DNA of 42,399 bases from an uncultured Wohlfahrtiimonas sp. Lineage in GTDB: Bacteria > Pseudomonadota > Gammaproteobacteria > Cardiobacteriales > Wohlfahrtiimonadaceae. Below are positions 4,321 through 39,900 of this stretch, piece after piece. Made by a program: the position numbers and the translations under genes. Below the pieces are notes generated by a model that saw nothing but the letters and a program-made list of their open reading frames with translations, was not told where the DNA came from and did not search any database. Location of the stretch: NCBI GenBank assembly GCA_947631095.1, contig CANRJX010000005.1:1-42399 (forward strand). The letters run 5' to 3'. Numbering within the stretch: the first letter of the stretch is position 1; each line of letters opens with the position of its first letter.

Positions 4321-6027
4321 ATGAAAAATATCATAGCATCAGCATTACATACTGCCGTTCAAACATTGAATAGCAATGAAAATCTTAATATTCCTGCCGA
4401 TAAAATCGGATTAAGCATTGAGCGCACACGAGATGTTGCGCATGGTGACTTTGCAAGTAATTTAGCAATGATGTTGGCTCGTGAGTTGAAAAGCTCACCG
4501 AGGCAAATTGCTGAAAAATTAATCGCAGCTTTACCAGTCGATCCTTTAATTGAAAAAGTTGAGATTGCTGGTGCTGGATTTATGAATTTTACATTAAGTA
4601 AAAGTGCATATTTCAATGAATTAAATGAAGTTGTTACACAGCAAGAAAAATATGGTCATAACAATGATGCAAATGGCGTAAAGGTGCAAGTGGAATTTGT
4701 TTCTGCTAACCCTACTGGCCCACTGCATGTTGGTCATGGTCGCGGTGCAGCTGTTGGTGACTCTTTAGCACGCATCATGGCTGCGAATGGTTATGATGTA
4801 ACAAAAGAGTTTTATTATAACGATGCAGGTGCTCAGATTGATAATCTGACATTGTCAGTGAAATCACGTATTGATGGTGTTGAACCTGATGATGCTTCGT
4901 GGCCAGCTGATGGCTATCGTGGTGATTATATTATTGAAATCGCTAAAGATTTTTTGGCTAAAAAAACAGTAATTGCTGATGATCGTAGTATTGTTGCCTC
5001 TGGTGATCCAAATGATTTGGAAAATATTCGTGAATTTGCAGTTGCTTATTTACGTCATGAACAAGATTTAGATCTACAAGCATTTGATGTTAAGTTTGAT
5101 AACTTTTTCTTGGAATCATCTGTTTATAAAGATGGTTCTGTAGATGCAACAGTTGAATTATTAACAAAAAATGGTTTTACGTACGAAGAAGATGGTGCTT
5201 TATGGTTAAGAACCACTGATTTCGGCGATGATAAAGATCGTGTTATGCGTAAAAAAGAAGGGGGTTATACGTACTTTGTGCCAGACGTGGCTTATCATCG
5301 CAACAAGTGGGAGCGCGGATTTAAGCGCGTTGTGAATGAGCAAGGTGCTGATCATCACGGAACAATTGCTCGTGTAAGAGCAGGGCTTCAGGCGTTGGAT
5401 ATTGGTATTCCAAAAGGATGGCCAGATTACGTATTGCATCAAATGGTATTAGTAATGCGTGATGGTCAAGAGGTTAAAATTTCAAAGCGTGCAGGAAGTT
5501 ATGTGACGTTAAGAGATTTAATTGATGAAGTGGGTAAAGATGCCACTCGTTATTTCTTGGTTGCTCGTAAGCCTGACTCACAATTGCAGTTTGATATTGA
5601 TTTAGCGCGCAGTCAGTCTTCAGAAAATCCAGTTTATTATATTCAATATGCGCATGCTCGTATTTGCTCATTGCTAGAAGAAAATAGTAAATCAAATGCT
5701 TTGGATTTAAATGCCGCTAAAGAAAATTTAAATCTCTTAGAGAGTATCGCAGAGTATGATTTAATGCGTGTTATTTCTCGTTTTCCTGAAGTTGTTGTGT
5801 CTGCAAATAGTAATAATGCACCGCATTTAATCGCAGCATATTTGCAAGAGTTAGCGGGATCTGTTCATAGTTATTACAATGCTAAGGATGAAAATGGTAA
5901 AGCGATTCGTATATTAACGGATGACAAGGCTTTACAGGATGCAAAACTATATTTGCTGTTCTCAGCTAAACAAGTAATTGCAAATGGTTTGTATTTATTG
6001 GGATTAAGTGCGCCTAATAAAATGTAA
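4321..6027 (+). CDS. argS: Arginyl-tRNA synthetase
   Basis: [24 protein letters not shown] (HIGH-type) and [11 protein letters not shown]-like (KISKRAG) motifs. Confidence 0.97.
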
Positions 6028-6039
6028 TTGATAGGTTAT

Positions 6040-6780
6040 ATGGCAAAAAAGTATTTCCAAGCGAAAAAGTATACCAATAATCCTTTAGCTATGATTGGAA
6101 AAAAGCATCCTAATTCTAGAAAAAATAGAATTATTGCTATTTGTGTCGTACTATTTTTCACTGTTATGGCTGCTTCAGCTGGTGTGACATATTTAACCAA
6201 TATGTTTAAAGAGAAAGCTGAAGTTGCCGCTGAAAAAAAAGAAGAGAGACAAAAGGCTAAAGAACCACCGGTTAAAAAAGTGGTTAAACCTTTATCTGAT
6301 GAAGCTTTTAAAGGTGAAAAAGAATATAATTTTTACACTCAATTAGAAGAGCGTTCATTCATGATTGGTGGTGAAGATCGATTTGGTGGTATAGCATTAG
6401 ATAATATACATGAGCCACCTAAGATCACTTTAGAAAGCGCTACTCAATCTGCGGTTTCTACTGTGCAAAATGAAATAGTGAAAAATACTTATCCTGATAT
6501 GGCGCCGCTTGTATTAGAGAGTACAAAGCAGAGCGATGTTGTCGTTAAAAATAATGAGTTAAGAGCCCTTCAAGTTGGTAGTTTTACTCACAAGAAAGAT
6601 GCTGAAAAACATCAGAAAAAATTAGAAAGTTATGGTTTTGCTTCAAAGATTTTACAAGCTAAAAATTCACAGCAACAAACATTGTATCGTGTGTATTTAG
6701 GGCCATTTTCTGGTAAAGAAATGAGTACTGTTAAGGCTAAGTTGAATGAATTAGGTATTAATCATTTTGAAGTGAAATAA
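6040..6780 (+). CDS. SPOR-domain protein, FtsN-like
   Basis: Single N-terminal TM helix, Lys/Glu-rich linker, C-terminal SPOR domain (ALQVGSFTHKKDAEKHQKKLESYGF...YRVYLGPF); follows argS as ftsN-like genes often do. Confidence 0.8.
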   Translation: MAKKYFQAKKYTNNPLAMIGKKHPNSRKNRIIAICVVLFFTVMAASAGVTYLTNMFKEKAEVAAEKKEERQKAKEPPVKKVVKPLSDEAFKGEKEYNFYTQLEERSFMIGGEDRFGGIALDNIHEPPKITLESATQSAVSTVQNEIVKNTYPDMAPLVLESTKQSDVVVKNNELRALQVGSFTHKKDAEKHQKKLESYGFASKILQAKNSQQQTLYRVYLGPFSGKEMSTVKAKLNELGINHFEVK

Positions 6781-31638: not shown

Positions 31639-32424
31639 TTATAAATCAATGTCTCTATGACAATCTTTAGAGTAGATATAGCTGAAGTCCTCTTCACCTA
31701 CTTGATAGGCAACTTGAAGAGCGTAGGGGCCCATGAAGATATAATCACCTTCTTGTACAGGCATCCATTGGTTATCTAGATTATACATGCCACGACCAGA
31801 AGTGATTAAAGCGCCATGCTCTTGCACATGAGTTTCAATGTAACCATGTGAGCCACCTTTTTTAAACGTTAGGATATGCATATTCATATCAAAACCTAGT
31901 TCAGCAGGTAGCATACTTTGAAAATGCACATTTTCCATTCCTTCATAGTGCACTACTTCAACATTTTTGATGTTGTTAGAAATGACTCGTGCAGAATAGC
32001 CTTCTAATGGTACATAACGGCGTTTGTATAAAAATAATTTACTATTTTGACCATTGTTATCATTTTGTAGATACATGGTGACACCTGCAGGGCAGTAAAG
32101 ATAACCACCTTTATCTAATAAGTGTTCATCTTTATCTGAATATGCTTTGATTTTTCCTTCTAGTACAAATACGAAGGTTTCAATATCGCCACCACCAAAA
32201 CCACGAGTATTTTTACCATCAGCTTTCATATTAACAACGTAGTCAACAAATGAAGCACCCATTTTTGGTGAACCAAGAATTGTCATGTCGCAGTTTTCAA
32301 ACCCAGGAACAGTATTGTTAACCATGCCATTTGGTTCTAATAATGCACAATTACCATGTTTAACGAATGAACGAGTTTGCAACACACCGTTTGGAAAACC
32401 AAGTTGATTATTGATATAGCCCAT
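31639..32424 (-). CDS. allE: (S)-ureidoglycine aminohydrolase
   Basis: Close similarity to E. coli AllE/YlbA: ALLEPNGMVNNTVPGFENCD, LFLYKRRYVPLEGY, ELGFDMNMHILTF, SHGYIETHVQEHGA, SYIYSKDCHRD. Confidence 0.95.
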   Translation of the reverse strand: MGYINNQLGFPNGVLQTRSFVKHGNCALLEPNGMVNNTVPGFENCDMTILGSPKMGASFVDYVVNMKADGKNTRGFGGGDIETFVFVLEGKIKAYSDKDEHLLDKGGYLYCPAGVTMYLQNDNNGQNSKLFLYKRRYVPLEGYSARVISNNIKNVEVVHYEGMENVHFQSMLPAELGFDMNMHILTFKKGGSHGYIETHVQEHGALITSGRGMYNLDNQWMPVQEGDYIFMGPYALQVAYQVGEEDFSYIYSKDCHRDIDL

Positions 32425-32489
32425 TGTTATCTCCTTTAGATAAATAAAATAGTACTGTGTTTCATACTTAAATTAATGTTTTGCAGCTC

Positions 32490-33722
32490 TTATTCAAGAT
32501 ATGCCAATTCATATAATGTTTGTGCCAAAATTTTTACACCTTCAGCTAAGTCTTCAATTTTTGTTGCCTCAGCAGGATTATGGCTTACACCATTAATGCT
32601 TGGTACAAAGAACATAACTGTTGGAACTTTTGGCGAAAAAATTTGAGCATCATGCCCAGCTCCACTATGCATTATGCGAAAGTTATAATTATCGCGCTGA
32701 CAGATTGTTTCTAATTTTTGCACTAATTTTTGATCCATTGGGATAGGGTCTTCATCCATCCAACGATCAATTTCAATGATTAAGCCATGTTCTTTGGCAA
32801 TGCGTTGCATATCTGCTTCTAATTCTGTTGTGAAATCTACCAGTGCTTTTTTGTCAGTGTGACGACAATCAATTGTAAAATTAGTGTATCCCGGTACAAC
32901 GTTAACAACATTGGGTTTTGGTTCGACTTTACCAAATGTTAACACTAATGGGTCGCCGATTTTTTTTGCTTTATTGATCGATTCAAAACAGATTTGGCTG
33001 AAGCCATAGATGGTATCTTTTCTATAGCCCATAGGTGTAGTACCCGCATGGTTTGATTGACCTTTAAGAGAGACATTATAGCGGCGCTGGCCAACGATAC
33101 TATTAACAATACCAATCTGTTTGCCTTCAATTTCTAGAACATTGCCTTGTTCGATATGAATTTCTACGAATGCTTTAATATCATCGCGCATAGGTTTGGT
33201 ATTGTCTCTGAAATCAAAACCTGCGTTATGCATCGCATCAACAAATTTTATTCCTTTAGCATCAGTAATATTTACCACATCATTATTATTGGCAATGCCT
33301 ACAATATTTTTGCTTCCCCAAAATACATAAGGAAAACGGCTACCTTCTTCTTCTGCGAAAGAGACAACTTCAAGAGATCTGAGCGGCTGACCATATGTTT
33401 CTTTGAGATATTGAATGGCTAAAAATGCGGCTTCAATACCATACTGCCCATCTAAATTTCCGCCATTAACAACAGTATCTATGTGGGAACCAGATAGAAT
33501 AGATTCATTTGGGTATTTACTGCCTTCTAAGCGCCCAAATAAATTTCCTACTTCATCAAATGATGCGGTTAGTCCATGATCAATAAACTTTTGCTTTAAA
33601 GCATTTTGTGCTTCAATCCATTCTTGAGAATAGAGTAGACGAGTCATACCACCTGTCGGATCAGCACCAATTGCTGACAACCATTTGGATATATCGGTAA
33701 AACGTTCTGTAAAATTTATCAT
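32490..33722 (-). CDS. allC: Allantoate amidohydrolase
   Basis: GADPTGGMTRLLYSQEW, SGSHIDTVVNGGNLDGQYG, EEEGSRFPYVFWGSKNI, MHSGAGHDAQIF. Confidence 0.96.
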   Translation of the reverse strand: MINFTERFTDISKWLSAIGADPTGGMTRLLYSQEWIEAQNALKQKFIDHGLTASFDEVGNLFGRLEGSKYPNESILSGSHIDTVVNGGNLDGQYGIEAAFLAIQYLKETYGQPLRSLEVVSFAEEEGSRFPYVFWGSKNIVGIANNNDVVNITDAKGIKFVDAMHNAGFDFRDNTKPMRDDIKAFVEIHIEQGNVLEIEGKQIGIVNSIVGQRRYNVSLKGQSNHAGTTPMGYRKDTIYGFSQICFESINKAKKIGDPLVLTFGKVEPKPNVVNVVPGYTNFTIDCRHTDKKALVDFTTELEADMQRIAKEHGLIIEIDRWMDEDPIPMDQKLVQKLETICQRDNYNFRIMHSGAGHDAQIFSPKVPTVMFFVPSINGVSHNPAEATKIEDLAEGVKILAQTLYELAYLE

Positions 33723-33759
33723 ATATGCGCACCTAAGTTATTTATGTAGTAATAGCTAA

Positions 33760-34809
33760 TTAACTTGCAAAAGGATCTTTATGATCATAAGAGTTGATGT
33801 AAATCTCATCAGATATTAAATAATTATAAATATCATCAACGATTTCAATACCATTTTTTAATGCTTCTTTTTCAGCAAGTTCAGTATTTTGACCAGGGTA
33901 GAAAACCATATCTACTCCTTCTACAGGCTTAATGTTATTGAGTTCTTTCATCATACGGCTGATGCCTTGTCGAACCACTTCAGCACCTGCAAATCTTTCA
34001 GGATCAATAACAATATGTAACTGGGCTAAATTACGCCCTTCTTTTAAATCGTGATACATAGATGATACATTTTTACCAAATGGCAGCCCTAAAAGAACAC
34101 CTGTGAGTACATCAACCATCATCATTAAACCATAACCTTTAGGTCCCGCAATTGGTAATAATGCATGTACTGCATGAGGATCAGTGGTTGGTTTGCCTGT
34201 TGAGTCTACAGCCCAGCTGTCTGGGATTGATACATTACGTGATCGAGCATCTAAAATCTTACCCCATGCTTGTACTGTTGTTGCCATATCAAAGATAATT
34301 TTGTCATCACCTTCACCGGGTGCTGCAAATGCTATCGGATTAGTGCCAAAATATACATCTGCGCCATTAAAAGGTACTGCCATTGGATCAGATTGGCACA
34401 TTGAAATGCCAATTAATCCAGCATCTGCAGCCATTTCGACAAAGTAAGATAATGCACCACTATGACCAATTCTGCTTAAGCCAACCACAGCGACACCATT
34501 TTCTTTCGCCATAGCAATTGCTTCATCCATGGCTAACTTAGCAGCAACATGACCTGCACCATTGTCACCATGGAATATTGCACTGCATGGACCTGTTTTT
34601 TCAAAATTAAATTTAGGTGCTGTATTTGTTCCACCTTTGCTAATGCGTTCAGCATAATATTCTACACGTACAGCACCATGAGAATGGATGCCTCGTAAAT
34701 CTGCATGTACTAATACGTCAGCAACTATGTGTGCATGCTCTGTGGTTAATCCTGCTTGAGTTAATTTTGTTTTTATCAGTGAATGTAGTGTTTCGTGAGT
34801 CAACTTCAT
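33760..34809 (-). CDS. allD: Ureidoglycolate dehydrogenase
   Basis: HADLRGIHSHGAVRVEYYAERISKGGTN, SRIGHSGALSYFV, MCQSDPMAVPF; ORF-track start 34926 is too long, ATG at 34809 (MKLTHETLHSLI) has an adjacent GGAGA SD. Confidence 0.95.
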   Translation of the reverse strand: MKLTHETLHSLIKTKLTQAGLTTEHAHIVADVLVHADLRGIHSHGAVRVEYYAERISKGGTNTAPKFNFEKTGPCSAIFHGDNGAGHVAAKLAMDEAIAMAKENGVAVVGLSRIGHSGALSYFVEMAADAGLIGISMCQSDPMAVPFNGADVYFGTNPIAFAAPGEGDDKIIFDMATTVQAWGKILDARSRNVSIPDSWAVDSTGKPTTDPHAVHALLPIAGPKGYGLMMMVDVLTGVLLGLPFGKNVSSMYHDLKEGRNLAQLHIVIDPERFAGAEVVRQGISRMMKELNNIKPVEGVDMVFYPGQNTELAEKEALKNGIEIVDDIYNYLISDEIYINSYDHKDPFAS

Positions 34810-34914
34810 AGTTTTCTCCAAAATGTCTATTAAGGTAATAGGAATATCAATTATTTTAACCAAAAATGACTTGATTCTAATTAAGTATTTATGAGGTATT
34901 TGCTTTTTTATATA

Positions 34915-34953
34915 AAAAGACCGCATTGTTAGAAATAATCTAACAACACGGTC
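34915..34953 (-). terminator. Intrinsic terminator of the MFS gene (minus strand)
   Basis: Minus strand GACCGTGTTGTTAGA-TTATT-TCTAACAATGCGGTC-TTTTT; 15-nt arms with two mismatched pairs. Confidence 0.85.
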
Positions 34954-34974: not shown

Positions 34975-36315
34975 TTAATATTTTTTTGATATACCTACTT
35001 CAGTCCATCCGTTATAGGCAAGTGGTAAATATGCCACAGCTATGGCAATGATAGAAATAAACCAAATATAGTAGGCAACGCCCATAGGTGTTATTTTTAG
35101 TAATGCAATTGCAACTGCTGGTGTAATCGCACTAAAGATTGCATATGAAAGATTATATGAAAATGATAATCCACTGAAGCGAATTGCAGGTGGGAACATT
35201 CTTGTTGCTATCACTGGTGGAAGTGTAGTCGCCCCAGCAAAAAATCCCATGAAAGCGTATAAAATTAATATTGTGGAAATCGTCGGATGATGTCCGAGTA
35301 CGCTATAAAATATGGCGGAACTAACGATTAAACCACCCCAGAAAAGTGTAGAAGCTTTACGTGTTTTAAGTTTATCTTCAAAAATTCCGCATGTTACACA
35401 GCCGATCACAATGAAAACTGCTGCAATTAAGCCTGCCGTTCTCGCAATAATTGGATCTATTCCATATAGACCTTGTAACACTTTAACAGGCGTAAATAAT
35501 ATGCCTAACATGACGGTTGTGGATAAAGACCATGTTAATAATCCTGTCAAAAGACACGCTAATTTATGCTTTTTCAAGACGGTAATAATTGGAATTTCTT
35601 TAGATAACGATTTATTTTTTGCCATCTCTTGGAAAACAGGTGTTTCAGATAAAAATCTGCGTAAGTAAACCGCAACTAATCCAAAAATACCACCAATAAT
35701 GAATGGAATTCTCCAAGCATAATCAGTGATTGCCGCACGGTTGTCAGCGTAGATTAAATCTATTGCGAGAGATATTGAAAAGCCTAATAATATACCGCCA
35801 GCTATACCGCCTGTTAATACCCCAATTCCTAAACCGTAGTGTTTCTTAGGTGAATGTTCTGCAATAAAGACCCAAGCCCCCGGCATTTCTCCACCAATCG
35901 CGGCTCCTTGAAATACACGAAATACAATCAAGAGAATTGGTGCCGCAATTCCGATGCTTGCATAAGTTGGCATTAAGCCGATTAATAGAGTAGGGATTGC
36001 CATCATAAATATACTTAATGTGAACATTTTTTTACGGCCAAGAGTATCACCAAAGTGTGCCATGATCATTCCACCGAAAGGTCGTGCAAGATAACCTGCT
36101 GCAAACCCACCCCAAGCAAAGATGTCACCCCAAATTCCTGCTGCAATGTCTGCTGGTAAGAATAGAGGTTTAACAACTGTTTCAATGTAGAGAGCATAGA
36201 TCACAAAATCATAGAACTCTAATGTGCCGCCGAGTGCTGCGAGGGATAAAGTTTTTTTATCTTCGCGTGTTAAGGTTTTTTCATATTTTATACTTGTGAT
36301 ACTGGCTTCAGCCAT
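34975..36315 (-). CDS. MFS transporter, metabolite:H+ symporter (MHS/ProP-like) type; substrate possibly Tyr/Phe (inferred from the leader)
   Basis: 12-TM MFS: GGTLEFYDFVIYALY, LARPFGGMIMAHFGDTLGRKKMF, FRVFQGAAIGGEMPGAWVFIAEH; SD AAAGGAG at 36328-36322. Confidence 0.9.
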   Translation of the reverse strand: MAEASITSIKYEKTLTREDKKTLSLAALGGTLEFYDFVIYALYIETVVKPLFLPADIAAGIWGDIFAWGGFAAGYLARPFGGMIMAHFGDTLGRKKMFTLSIFMMAIPTLLIGLMPTYASIGIAAPILLIVFRVFQGAAIGGEMPGAWVFIAEHSPKKHYGLGIGVLTGGIAGGILLGFSISLAIDLIYADNRAAITDYAWRIPFIIGGIFGLVAVYLRRFLSETPVFQEMAKNKSLSKEIPIITVLKKHKLACLLTGLLTWSLSTTVMLGILFTPVKVLQGLYGIDPIIARTAGLIAAVFIVIGCVTCGIFEDKLKTRKASTLFWGGLIVSSAIFYSVLGHHPTISTILILYAFMGFFAGATTLPPVIATRMFPPAIRFSGLSFSYNLSYAIFSAITPAVAIALLKITPMGVAYYIWFISIIAIAVAYLPLAYNGWTEVGISKKY

Positions 36316-36330
36316 TTGTAACTCCTTTAT

Positions 36331-36355
36331 AAAAAAAGCCCGCTATTTGCGGGCT
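36331..36355 (-). terminator. Attenuator terminator immediately upstream of the MFS SD
   Basis: Minus strand AGCCCGC-AAATA-GCGGGCT-TTTTTT (7 bp perfect), then ATAAAGGAGTTACAAATG (SD + start of MFS). Confidence 0.88.
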
Positions 36356-36407
36356 CTGGGTAATTTTTTGTTGGTTTATTTTATACAATAAAAAATTCCG
36401 AGTCCCG
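36350..36407 (-). promoter_or_regulatory. Predicted antiterminator pairing
   Basis: 36407-36398 CGGG(A)CTCGG can pair with 36359-36350 CC(A)GAGCCCG: 9 bp with two single-A bulges, mutually exclusive with the terminator hairpin. Confidence 0.7.
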
Positions 36408-36458
36408 TTAGGATTCGAAGTAGTAATAAAAATAAACAGCAACGATTATCTTGTTCAT
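36408..36458 (-). CDS. Putative aromatic-amino-acid leader peptide MNKIIVAVYFYYYFES
   Basis: ATG AAC AAG ATA ATC GTT GCT GTT TAT TTT TAT TAC TAC TTC GAA TCC TAA; six consecutive Tyr/Phe codons, stop codon abuts the antiterminator arm; alternative ATG at 36464 (MT + same); no clear Shine-Dalgarno. Confidence 0.65.
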   Translation of the reverse strand: MNKIIVAVYFYYYFES

Positions 36459-36513
36459 GGTCATAATTTTTACAATGCTTTTCTGTAAAAAGCAATAGTA
36501 TTGATTAAAATAT

Positions 36514-36932: not shown

Positions 36933-36968
36933 TTGACATTAACAATAACTGTACTATCATGCTAGTAC
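36933..36968 (+). promoter_or_regulatory. Promoter of the trpR-like/trpXYZ-like operon with overlapping TrpR-type operator
   Basis: TTGACA (36933-36938), 16 bp, TATCAT (36955-36960); operator GTACTATCATGCTAGTAC (36951-36968), 8/9 symmetric pairs, 13/18 identical to the symmetrised E. coli trp operator GTACTAGTTAACTAGTAC. Confidence 0.8.
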
Positions 36969-36985
36969 ATTTAGTGGGGGTGTTA

Positions 36986-37270
36986 ATGAAAAATGATGAT
37001 TATGAAGCACTATGTGAAGCATTAGTCTCGATTGATAACAAAGAAAGCATGAATAATTTTTTAAAAGATTTATGCACACCGAATGAATATGCAGCGTTTG
37101 TAGAGCGCTGGAGAGTATGTAAACTTCTTGCAACAGAGCAGTATTCATATCGTGAAATACATGCAAAAACAGGCGCAAGTTTAACCACAATTGGTCGCGT
37201 GGCTCGGTTTTTAAAAGATGAGACAAACGATGGGTATAAATCAGTTTTAGAGAAAATTAATCAAAAATAA
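36986..37270 (+). CDS. TrpR/YerC-YecD family transcriptional regulator
   Basis: DLCTPNEYAAFVERWRVCKLLATEQYSYREIHAKTGASLTTIGRVARFLKD aligns with the TrpR HTH region; ORF-track start 36959 falls in the operator/promoter, ATG 36986 has a GGGGG-type SD. Confidence 0.88.
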   Translation: MKNDDYEALCEALVSIDNKESMNNFLKDLCTPNEYAAFVERWRVCKLLATEQYSYREIHAKTGASLTTIGRVARFLKDETNDGYKSVLEKINQK

Positions 37271-37290
37271 TGATATTTAGGAGTAATTAT

Positions 37291-38259
37291 ATGAAAAAAA
37301 CAGTTTTAGCAGCAGCGTTAAGTTTGGTAACAGTATTTGGTATGTCTTTAGCAGATACAAAGAAAGTTTATATTAATCAAATCGTTGAGCACCCAGCATT
37401 AGATCAGACAGCTTTGGGCATCAAAGATGGTTTAGAAAAGCGTGGCTATAAGCAAGGTGAAAACTTAGATTTACGAGTTGAATCAGCGCAGGGCAATATT
37501 GCATTGGCTAGCCAAATCTCTACAAAATTTGTTAACCAAGGCGCAGATGTTACTGTAGGTATTGGTACACCTTCTGCACAAAGCTTAGTAAAAGCTGCAA
37601 ATGAAGGCAAAACTAAAATGATCTTCTCTTCTATCACAGATCCTTTAAGTGCAAGTTTAGTAACGGCATTGTCAGGTTCAAACAGCAATGTAACTGGCAT
37701 GTCGAATAAAGTAGATGTTGTGCCACAGTTTGAATTATTTAAAGAACTGTATCCAAACTTAAAATCGTTGGGTTTTCTTTATAATCCAGCCGATGCTAAC
37801 TCAATCCAACAGTTGCAAGATGTAACGGCTGCGAGCGAAAAATTAGGCTTAACAATTGTTGCGCAATCAGTGAATAAAACATCTGATGTGCCACAAGCTG
37901 CGACTCGTTTAGCGGGCCGTACAGATGGATTGTTTGTGTATGGTGACAATACAACATTGGCAGCTTTGGAAAGCGTTATCATGGCTGCAAACAAAGAAAA
38001 TAAACCTGTATTTGTAGCAGATACTGATGCAGTAGAATTAGGTGCGTTAGCAGCGTTAGGTCCAAATCAATATGATATTGGGCTAGATACAGCAACTATG
38101 ATCGCAGATGTTCTAGATGGTAAAGATATTAATTCAATTGATGTTGGTTTTCCAACTGAGTTAGAATTAGTGATTAACCAAGATGCGGCTGACAAATTAG
38201 GATATACATTCCCTGATGCTATCAAGGCAAAAGCAGCAAAAGTAATCAAGAAGGATTAA
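37291..38259 (+). CDS. ABC transporter substrate-binding protein, TrpX-like
   Basis: Signal peptide MKKTVLAAALSLVTVFGMSLA; KVYINQIVEHPALDQTALGIKDGLEKRGY...VGIGTPSAQSL TrpX-type ABC_sub_bind; SD AGGAG, start ATG 37291. Confidence 0.9.
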   Translation: MKKTVLAAALSLVTVFGMSLADTKKVYINQIVEHPALDQTALGIKDGLEKRGYKQGENLDLRVESAQGNIALASQISTKFVNQGADVTVGIGTPSAQSLVKAANEGKTKMIFSSITDPLSASLVTALSGSNSNVTGMSNKVDVVPQFELFKELYPNLKSLGFLYNPADANSIQQLQDVTAASEKLGLTIVAQSVNKTSDVPQAATRLAGRTDGLFVYGDNTTLAALESVIMAANKENKPVFVADTDAVELGALAALGPNQYDIGLDTATMIADVLDGKDINSIDVGFPTELELVINQDAADKLGYTFPDAIKAKAAKVIKKD

Positions 38260-38267
38260 ATTAGTAG

Positions 38268-39146
38268 ATGATCAGTTTAGGTGAATTAGAGATAGCCCTA
38301 ATTTTAGGGCTAGTTTATGGGATAGTTGGCATGGGAATCTATCTAACATTTCGTGTGATAGATTTTCCAGATTTAACATGTGATGGAAGTTTTGTACTCG
38401 GTGCTGCAATTTCAAGTATCTTGATCAAATATGGTTACAATCCTTATTTATCTCTCTTATTAGCAGTATTAGGTGGGATGGCTGCTGGTTCTGTAACAGG
38501 CATATTAAATTGTTATTTTAAAGTAACAGATTTATTGGCAGGTATTTTAGTCGCGTTCATGCTTTATTCTGTGAATATTCATGTGATGGGCGGTATACCG
38601 AATATTTCATTATTAGGTGCGACCACAATTTTTCCTTCATCATCGTTTGAGTTATTTGGTTACAATTTTTCATTATCTCTAGTTTACTTAACATTGATCG
38701 CAGTTGTATTGGTTGCGATATTTACTTGGATTTTAAGCACAAATCTAGGGTTATCGTTGCGCGCAATTGGCCAGAATAAGCGTTTATGTTTAAACGGTGG
38801 TGTGAATGTTAAGTGGATGATTATTTTGGGTGTTGCTTTGGGGAATGGATTAATTGCTTTAGGTGGCGCATTATTTTCTCAGCAACAAGGTTTTGGTGAT
38901 TTAACTTCAGGTATTGGTACGATTATCGCAGGTTTTGCGGCTGTGATTATCGGTGAAAAAATCTTACCGTTCAGATCAATTTGGATTAAGTTATTGAGCT
39001 GTATTATCGGCTCTATTGCTTATCGTATTGTGACATCAGTGGCTTTAAATACAGAGTTCTTACATCTTCAAACGTCAGATTTCAATCTTATTGCGGGTGT
39101 TTTAATTATCGTAATTATGGCGTTACCGGGAAGAAAAAATGCTTAA
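38268..39146 (+). CDS. ABC transporter permease, TrpY-like
   Basis: Multi-TM branched-chain-type permease, TFRVIDFPDLTCDGSFVLGAA; between TrpX-like SBP and ATPase. Confidence 0.9.
   Translation: MISLGELEIALILGLVYGIVGMGIYLTFRVIDFPDLTCDGSFVLGAAISSILIKYGYNPYLSLLLAVLGGMAAGSVTGILNCYFKVTDLLAGILVAFMLYSVNIHVMGGIPNISLLGATTIFPSSSFELFGYNFSLSLVYLTLIAVVLVAIFTWILSTNLGLSLRAIGQNKRLCLNGGVNVKWMIILGVALGNGLIALGGALFSQQQGFGDLTSGIGTIIAGFAAVIIGEKILPFRSIWIKLLSCIIGSIAYRIVTSVALNTEFLHLQTSDFNLIAGVLIIVIMALPGRKNA
38293..38312 (+). repeat. Perfect 9-bp inverted repeat inside the start of the permease gene
   Basis: TAGCCCTAA-TT-TTAGGGCTA, about 25 nt downstream of the permease ATG. Confidence 0.8.
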
Positions 39147-39900
39147 GTTAGAATCAATAGATGTCATCGTTGCTAAAGGCACAAAATTAGAGCGAGAAGT
39201 GCTTTCAAACCTAAGTTTGGAAGTTAAAAAAGGTGAGTTTTCGGTAATCATTGGTGGTAATGGTGCTGGTAAATCAACATTGTTTAATGTTGTTTCTGGT
39301 TTTATGAAGCCAGAAAAAGGCCGTATTTTAATTGATGATCAAGATGTGACATATAATTCGCAGCAAAAGCGAGCCAAAGATGTATCGATTGTGATGCAAG
39401 ATCCACGTGTTGGCACAATGGAACGCATGACAATTTTAGAAAATATGTCATTCGCTGCTAAACGCGGCCAGTTACGTGGTTTAGAGTTTTTTAATAGCCG
39501 CGCAAAACGTGAGTTTTTTAGAGAACGTTTATCACTCTTGAATATGGGATTAGAGAATAGGCTCCAAGATTCTGTGATGAATTTATCAGGTGGCCAACGC
39601 CAAGCATTAAGCCTAATTATGGCGATTTTATCTGACTCAAAAATCTTATTATTGGATGAAATTACAGCGGCATTGGACCCTAAAATTGCTGAAAATGTTA
39701 TGTATTTAGCAAATAAGATCGTTGAAGAAACGCATCTGACTTGTTTAATGATTACTCATAATATGCACCATGCGATTAAATATGGTGATCGAACCATGTT
39801 ATTAAAAAATGGCAAATTCTTAAAAACATTTACGCAAGCAGAAAAACAAAATTTAAGTGCGCCAGAATTGGCTGCAATGTTCGAAGAAGATTTTGAGTAA
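39139..39900 (+). CDS. ABC transporter ATP-binding protein, TrpZ-like
   Basis: GGNGAGKSTLFN, LSGGQRQALSLIMAIL, LLLDEITAALDP. Confidence 0.94.
   Translation: MLKLESIDVIVAKGTKLEREVLSNLSLEVKKGEFSVIIGGNGAGKSTLFNVVSGFMKPEKGRILIDDQDVTYNSQQKRAKDVSIVMQDPRVGTMERMTILENMSFAAKRGQLRGLEFFNSRAKREFFRERLSLLNMGLENRLQDSVMNLSGGQRQALSLIMAILSDSKILLLDEITAALDPKIAENVMYLANKIVEETHLTCLMITHNMHHAIKYGDRTMLLKNGKFLKTFTQAEKQNLSAPELAAMFEEDFE

Follow-up and report, generated by a model that had tools for sequence, protein, structure and literature searches.

Amino-acid leader-peptide attenuators are, in the textbook cases, located on biosynthetic or tRNA-synthetase genes. The aroR leader before aroF of C. glutamicum contains Phe-Tyr-Phe and acts by attenuation, and it is reported to sense Phe only (Neshat et al. 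2014, as described in PMC11802643 and PMC4046766). In Sinorhizobium meliloti the trpL RNA starts at its own ATG, so that this attenuator leader is leaderless (PMC7298713). A Tyr/Phe attenuator on a transporter, or any in Wohlfahrtiimonas, was not found in the open-access literature that was searched.

Here we describe an element located in a 42,399-nucleotide stretch of DNA (the window) from an uncultured Wohlfahrtiimonas sp., directly upstream of a gene for an MHS-like transporter of the MFS. Computation revealed its parts and how far these are conserved, the alternative ways in which its RNA can pair, and parallel attenuators before trp genes. Very probably, the MFS element is a ribosome-mediated transcription attenuator which induces the transporter upon shortage of Tyr/Phe-tRNA. 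The type of switch is classic; its use on an MFS transporter, within a set with Trp, Tyr and mixed control codons, appears to be undescribed.

Results

On the minus strand a promoter-like sequence is followed by an ATG at 36458 (a further in-frame ATG lies at 36464), the leader MNKIIVAVYFYYYFES with its stop codon, CGGGACTCGG, an AT-rich spacer, CCAGAGCCCGCAAATAGCGGGCTTTTTTT, the Shine-Dalgarno sequence and the ATG of the MFS gene at 36315 (Table 1). An earlier note on this DNA had described the leader ORF, its six aromatic codons and a stop codon followed by CGGGACTCGG, and all of these were recovered at the same positions. Directly after the leader TAA, CGGGACTCGG (36407-36398) can pair with CCAGAGCCCG (36359-36350), as the note had proposed, and the 7-bp terminator before the MFS Shine-Dalgarno sequence is likewise present. 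Its stem, AGCCCGC-AAATA-GCGGGCT, is followed by a T-tract ending at 36331; a terminator scan also called it, with nine pairs (36357-36335; 0.5 expected in shuffles). A Tyr/Phe run of at least six codons occurs only once in the six frames of the window (0.15 expected under a first-order Markov model).

Table 1. Positions of the transporter gene, its leader elements and the parallel attenuators of the genus.
Feature	Position	Strand	Basis
MHS-type MFS transporter gene (446 aa)	34975..36315	-	TIGR00883, PF07690, PF00083 matches
MFS gene Shine-Dalgarno, AAGGAG	36322..36327	-	read from sequence
Leader peptide ORF, MNKIIVAVYFYYYFES and stop	36408..36458	-	conserved in six species
Control codons TAT TTT TAT TAC TAC TTC (Y F Y Y Y F)	36417..36434	-	sequence and six-species comparison
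Presumed leader promoter, -35 hexamer TTGCTT	36490..36495	-	motif in six species
Presumed leader promoter, -10 hexamer TAAAAA	36467..36472	-	spacing conserved in six species
Region 1 (TTCGAATCCT), overlaps end of leader ORF, pairs with region 2	36410..36419	-	fold analysis
Region 2 (CGGGACTCGGA), pairs with region 1 or 3	36397..36407	-	invariant in six species
Region 3, pairs with region 2 (antiterminator) or region 4 (terminator)	36349..36360	-	folding
Intrinsic terminator hairpin 3:4 (AGAGCCCGC-AAATA-GCGGGCTTT)	36335..36357	-	folding and terminator scan
Terminator T-tract	36331..36337	-	read from sequence
Trp-Trp attenuators	trpD: L118, L127, L124, L122, L178, L179; trpE: L131/L142, L166, L174		
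Tyr attenuator before TrpF-like gene	L105 (window genome, G000:C89:1222-1314); L100-L104, L150, L151		

The presumed leader promoter recurs in all six species compared as TTGC(T/A)(T/A)-17 nt-TA(A/C)AAA, ending 7-8 nt before the leader ATG (8 nt in the window); a consensus promoter scan leaves it under threshold and uncalled. A distance of 7-8 nt is usual between a -10 hexamer and the transcription start. The transcript probably starts at the leader ATG or within about 2 nt of it and, since the conserved -10 hexamer ends at just this distance, the leader is probably leaderless or near-leaderless. A Shine-Dalgarno sequence was sought before the leader ORF and is absent, in agreement with the earlier remark that none is clear; the promoter-like sequence close to the ATG may account for this. 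The MFS leader is in this respect unlike the Trp leader of trpD in the same genus, which has an AAGGA-type sequence before its ATG.

The earlier account comprised two hairpins. A third is added here by region 1, the end of the leader ORF (UUCGAAUCCU, 36419-36410), which also pairs with region 2; thus, the classic set of 1:2, 2:3 and 3:4 pairings is complete. All three alternatives, with an antiterminator that excludes the terminator, are present in six of six species. Relative to dinucleotide shuffles, the 90-nt switch region has a z value of -4.4 in the window and of -2.4 to -4.0 in the relatives. The stretch from region 2 to region 3 folds as the antiterminator in every species (z -2.9 to -3.9), with at most 4 of 500 shuffles equally stable in each.

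To model stalling, we placed a ribosome on the first, middle or last aromatic codon, took its edge to lie 16 nt from the codon in the P site, and folded the RNA beyond it up to just before region 4. With a stall at the first codon or in mid-run, 2:3 is the minimum-energy fold of this pre-terminator RNA in all six species (-15.2 to -20.6 kcal/mol). In mid-run, the edge of the stalled ribosome lies 4-7 nt short of region 2, so that region 1 is masked and region 2 is free, and a stall at the last codon begins to cover region 2 and weakens the antiterminator. A ribosome at the leader stop codon lets the terminator form in each of the six species. The attenuation logic put forward in the earlier note is thus supported by folding: removal of the ribosome-covered RNA yields the antiterminator as long as region 4 is still missing, and a ribosome at the stop leaves the terminator free in the constrained folds.

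Once the RNA is complete, the terminator often or usually has the lower energy, and this holds for many of the mid-run stalls as well. Hence, switching must be kinetic, as it is in known attenuators. The pre-terminator RNA also folds as 2:3 in five of the six species when no ribosome is present; consequently, 1:2 must arise during transcription. The leader of four species continues through region 2, and the position of its stop therefore differs from that in the window.

The comparison covers six Wohlfahrtiimonas genomes, that of the window and five congeners (those with names being W. populi, W. larvae and an uncultured Wohlfahrtiimonas MAG), i.e. about three lineages of one genus. Each genome has one MFS orthologue, in the congeners 82-91% identical to that of the window, and directly upstream of all six are the promoter, the leader, the Tyr/Phe run, the three hairpins and the T-tract. 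The leaders are MNKIIVAVYFYYYFES, MKNMIVAVYFYYYFES, MNKIIALVYFFYFKPCGTRRIL, MNKIIALVYFFYFYFKPCGTRRIL and, in two species, MNKMIALVYFFYFYYFKPCGTRSFFVMQK. Their aromatic runs comprise 5-8 consecutive Tyr/Phe codons and differ in length by whole codons only; the clear substitutions are third-position C/T changes or Tyr/Phe swaps. Since one random substitution preserves a Tyr/Phe codon with a probability of 0.22-0.28, the chance that four to six changes were all preserved is, as a rough estimate, well under 1%. Region 2 is identical in the six species, as expected for a segment that must pair with two partners. In the terminator stem AGCCCGC/GCGGGCT is changed to ACCCGCC/GGCGGGT, a compensated exchange that keeps the pairing; with six genomes from about three lineages, this covariation evidence is thin.

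Among paralogous MFS genes (64-67% identical; ten loci from the same and sister genomes), the 400 nt upstream contain neither a Tyr/Phe run of at least four codons nor such a terminator, and distant MFS homologues from a contig scan (L050-L055) have no Tyr/Phe runs upstream. The concern that AT-rich DNA may supply aromatic codons by chance, which the earlier note had raised against itself, is therefore ruled out by the six-species conservation, the codon-unit indels and the absence from paralogues. Nowhere among the homologous loci were hairpins kept with the aromatic ORF lost; they retain both hairpins and the ORF.

Two further observations concern the assemblies. In that of W. populi, part of the leader region occurs a second time and breaks off at an N (L038, around 5640-5760 and 5919-6044), probably a scaffolding artefact. 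An MFS paralogue (64-66% identical; G000:C4:6948-8225 in the window genome and G003:C7:180013-181293) has one internal stop in the match (TAG, TAA), which could be the very end of the gene or indicate a pseudogene.

With respect to the signal, each species' run holds both 2-4 Tyr and 2-4 Phe codons, and the final control codon is Phe in all six. The attenuator may sense one amino acid only, either Phe alone, as for aroF of C. glutamicum, or Tyr alone, and we assign this an appreciable probability, below even. Such a single signal would suit the constant final Phe codon, and the Phe-Tyr-Phe leader AroR is reported to be Phe-responsive and Tyr-unresponsive (PMC11802643), but Tyr and Phe codons are both retained in every species, and the codons best placed relative to region 2 are the mixed ones in mid-run.

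A trpR-like gene and a trpXYZ-type ABC transporter are adjacent or nearly adjacent to the MFS gene in six of six genomes. Only in the window genome and its closest relative does emrE lie between them; in four congeners the divergent trpR-like-trpXYZ unit adjoins the attenuator instead, and thus emrE beside the attenuator is incidental. These congeners also bear on a second alternative, in which the locus holds two plain intrinsic terminators, 1:2 with its T-run ending the emrE transcript and 3:4 serving as a back-up, and the aromatic ORF is due to chance. The window itself would allow this, as 1:2 has a T-run just after 36397, downstream of emrE. However, the four congeners without emrE, with the divergent trpR-like gene upstream, keep 1:2, the ORF and 3:4, so that 1:2 is ruled out as an emrE terminator. 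Moreover, a terminator placed between the MFS gene and the promoter that serves it would merely block the gene, and the Tyr/Phe run is conserved codon-wise. We regard two plain terminators as very improbable.

In the window the trpR-like gene, followed by the trpXYZ-type transporter, occupies 36959-39900 (plus strand); the TrpX protein scores 258 bits against NF041285, under the cut-off of 390. The presumed promoter of the trpR-like gene (TTGACA-16-TATCAT, 36933-36960, plus strand) is overlapped at its -10 by the palindrome TGTACTATCATGCTAGTACA (36949-36974, plus strand), present in all congeners. It is possibly an operator for a TrpR/YerC-type repressor controlling itself and trpXYZ.

R1, a covariance model made from the six MFS elements, also matches, more weakly, sites upstream of a TrpF-like gene and of trp genes, with the full attenuator layout at these places. 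The trp ORFs were identified by sequence and a TrpF search. In the window genome a MTHITLVSRNFWWQISHIAGDFLVSWQK leader precedes a trpD-like ORF, trpCF and trpB/trpA-like ORFs; in relatives, MTHFTQYLWWHISSSREMVLCVQ and MTQTMMNTTWWQELPTSGGSAVSVFQ leaders precede trpE-like ORFs. The leader before the TrpF-like gene is MNQFFTSYYYYYYLHDAGDVALCD (window genome) or MNQFFANYYYYYYLHKREI. Control codons are Trp-Trp in the trpE and trpD leaders and mostly 5-6 Tyr codons in the TrpF-like leader. Against Trp_leader (RF00513, cut-off 41 bits) the trpE/trpD elements of the genus, taken as a positive control, score 35.7-41.1 bits. The trpE and trpD gene groups lie apart from each other, and each group has a Trp-Trp leader attenuator of its own. 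The Tyr attenuator is found in all six Wohlfahrtiimonas and in two sister-genus genomes, one relative having YYDYY. The TrpF-like protein carries Ser and Gly where the TrpCF of the same genome has Cys and Asp, the residues expected to be catalytic in phosphoribosylanthranilate isomerase. Because of these replacements, it is probably not such an isomerase.

A second RNA model (R2), built from the Trp and Tyr elements only, finds the excluded MFS element in all six genomes (E 3.6e-6 in the window, 4.4e-4 at worst). Two apparently ordinary terminators were also obtained with E of about 2e-5 to 3e-5, and thus these E-values are supporting, not decisive. R2 also reaches two sister genera, where Trp-Trp leaders precede trpD-like genes; in one of the two, the TrpF-like gene has a leader with six Tyr codons. 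Across this search the MFS element was found in Wohlfahrtiimonas only. Weak R1 and R2 matches outside aromatic genes proved to be mostly ordinary gene-end terminators. By eye, no attenuators were seen before pheA and the DAHP synthase gene of the genus; just upstream of pheS, four genomes have a terminator-like hairpin, with no leader noted. It is very improbable that the leader is incidental and the MFS terminator is controlled by Rho, by a bound protein or small molecule, or by the short RNA in the role of an sRNA: the invariance of region 2 could also reflect a binding site, and there is a sub-threshold similarity to an Actinobacillus sRNA model, but such invariance is already expected from pairing with two partners, and the Trp- and Tyr-codon attenuators of the same genomes share the architecture with changed control codons.

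Against TIGR00883 the MFS protein scores 253.8 bits with the whole model covered (residues 29-424), which does not reach the MHS membership score of 443; the shikimate transporter model gives 156 bits (cut-off 538). All substrate-specific models are far under cut-off, the match being MHS-like at the subfamily level, and a search for a close solved structure gave just one weak PDB match. Import of an aromatic amino acid, as the earlier note supposed, goes further than these sub-cut-off matches; as a guess at the substrate, such an amino acid or a related compound is the most economical.

Downstream of the MFS gene, allD, allC and (S)-ureidoglycine aminohydrolase genes occupy 31639-34926 (minus strand). 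The true allD start is probably further in than that of the longest ORF, because the family model begins 39 codons into it. The window genome shares this arrangement, with allantoin genes after the MFS gene, with W. populi and W. larvae. An allantoin/ureide transporter is nevertheless unsupported: these genes are absent there in G001 and G003, a convergent gene adjoins the MFS gene in G001, and the W. populi allantoin cluster contains another transporter-like (MFS-type) gene, whereas the trpR-trpXYZ adjacency holds in every genome. An essential shikimate importer in a genus without DAHP synthase was also considered and dropped, since a type II DAHP synthase (PF01474) is found in five of the six genomes; the single one without a match is the window genome, which is 81.5% complete. 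PF00793 matches in the genus look KdsA-like by eye.

Discussion

We infer the following course of events. The promoter at about 36495-36467 would start an RNA with the leader ATG as its first or nearly first codon, and the leader would probably be translated as a leaderless or near-leaderless ORF. With ample charged Tyr- and Phe-tRNA the ribosome would clear the Tyr/Phe run, reach the stop and cover region 2 or permit 1:2 pairing; region 3 would then be unpaired, 3:4 would form and transcription would stop before the MFS gene. With scarce Tyr- or Phe-tRNA the ribosome would stall in the run and mask region 1. In this stalled state the 2:3 pairing would block the terminator, and the MFS gene would be transcribed.

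A conserved Tyr/Phe leader on a transporter would couple uptake directly to tRNA charging, and it hints at the function of an MFS protein for which homology reveals no substrate. The codon-exchanged set of attenuators across the genus is the more novel side of the finding. Tentatively, and with a likelihood somewhat below even, one attenuator architecture has been reused across this gammaproteobacterial family by exchange of control codons: Trp-Trp for trpE and trpD, mostly 5-6 Tyr for a TrpF homologue with altered catalytic residues (found in a sister genus too), and a mixed, leaderless Tyr/Phe version for the MFS importer. If so, one member of the set would be a tyrosine-specific ribosome-mediated attenuator, and another, likewise aromatic, would govern uptake rather than synthesis. 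The MFS element may either descend from the Trp/Tyr elements or merely resemble them; the parallel Trp, Tyr and Tyr/Phe elements offer material for studying how attenuators are copied and re-tuned by codon change.

The locus shows the structural features of ribosome-mediated attenuators, namely a short leader ORF with a run of codons for the amino acids presumably sensed, an intrinsic terminator between this ORF and the MFS gene, a 2:3 pairing that excludes the terminator together with a 1:2 pairing overlapping the control region, and a geometry in which a stalled ribosome would mask region 1 and spare region 2. Its predicted working principle is that of the pheA, pheST and trp leaders. The best Rfam match, below threshold, is Phe_leader (RF01859; enterobacterial pheA and pheST) with 33.1 bits for the window and 35.1-36.5 bits for three relatives, all short of the gathering score of 55; Trp_leader and Leu_leader are also among the high sub-threshold scores. 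With Phe_leader the MFS element shares the aromatic-rich ORF, the alternative hairpins and the terminator before the gene. It differs in its mixed Tyr/Phe instead of Phe-dominated control codons, in the lack of a Shine-Dalgarno sequence and in controlling a transporter, pheA of this genus being without such a leader. The 1:2, 2:3 and 3:4 logic is also that of Trp_leader (trp operons), from which the window element is set apart by its 27.8 bits (cut-off 41) and by Tyr/Phe control codons with zero Trp codons. The aroR leader of C. glutamicum is alike in its Phe-Tyr-Phe codons and in attenuating an aromatic-related gene, but belongs to an actinobacterium, has a shorter aromatic run, precedes a biosynthetic gene and is reported to sense Phe only. 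S. meliloti trpL resembles the MFS leader as an attenuator ORF starting at the ATG, a start that for the MFS leader is deduced from promoter position, and differs as a Trp leader of a biosynthetic operon in Alphaproteobacteria.
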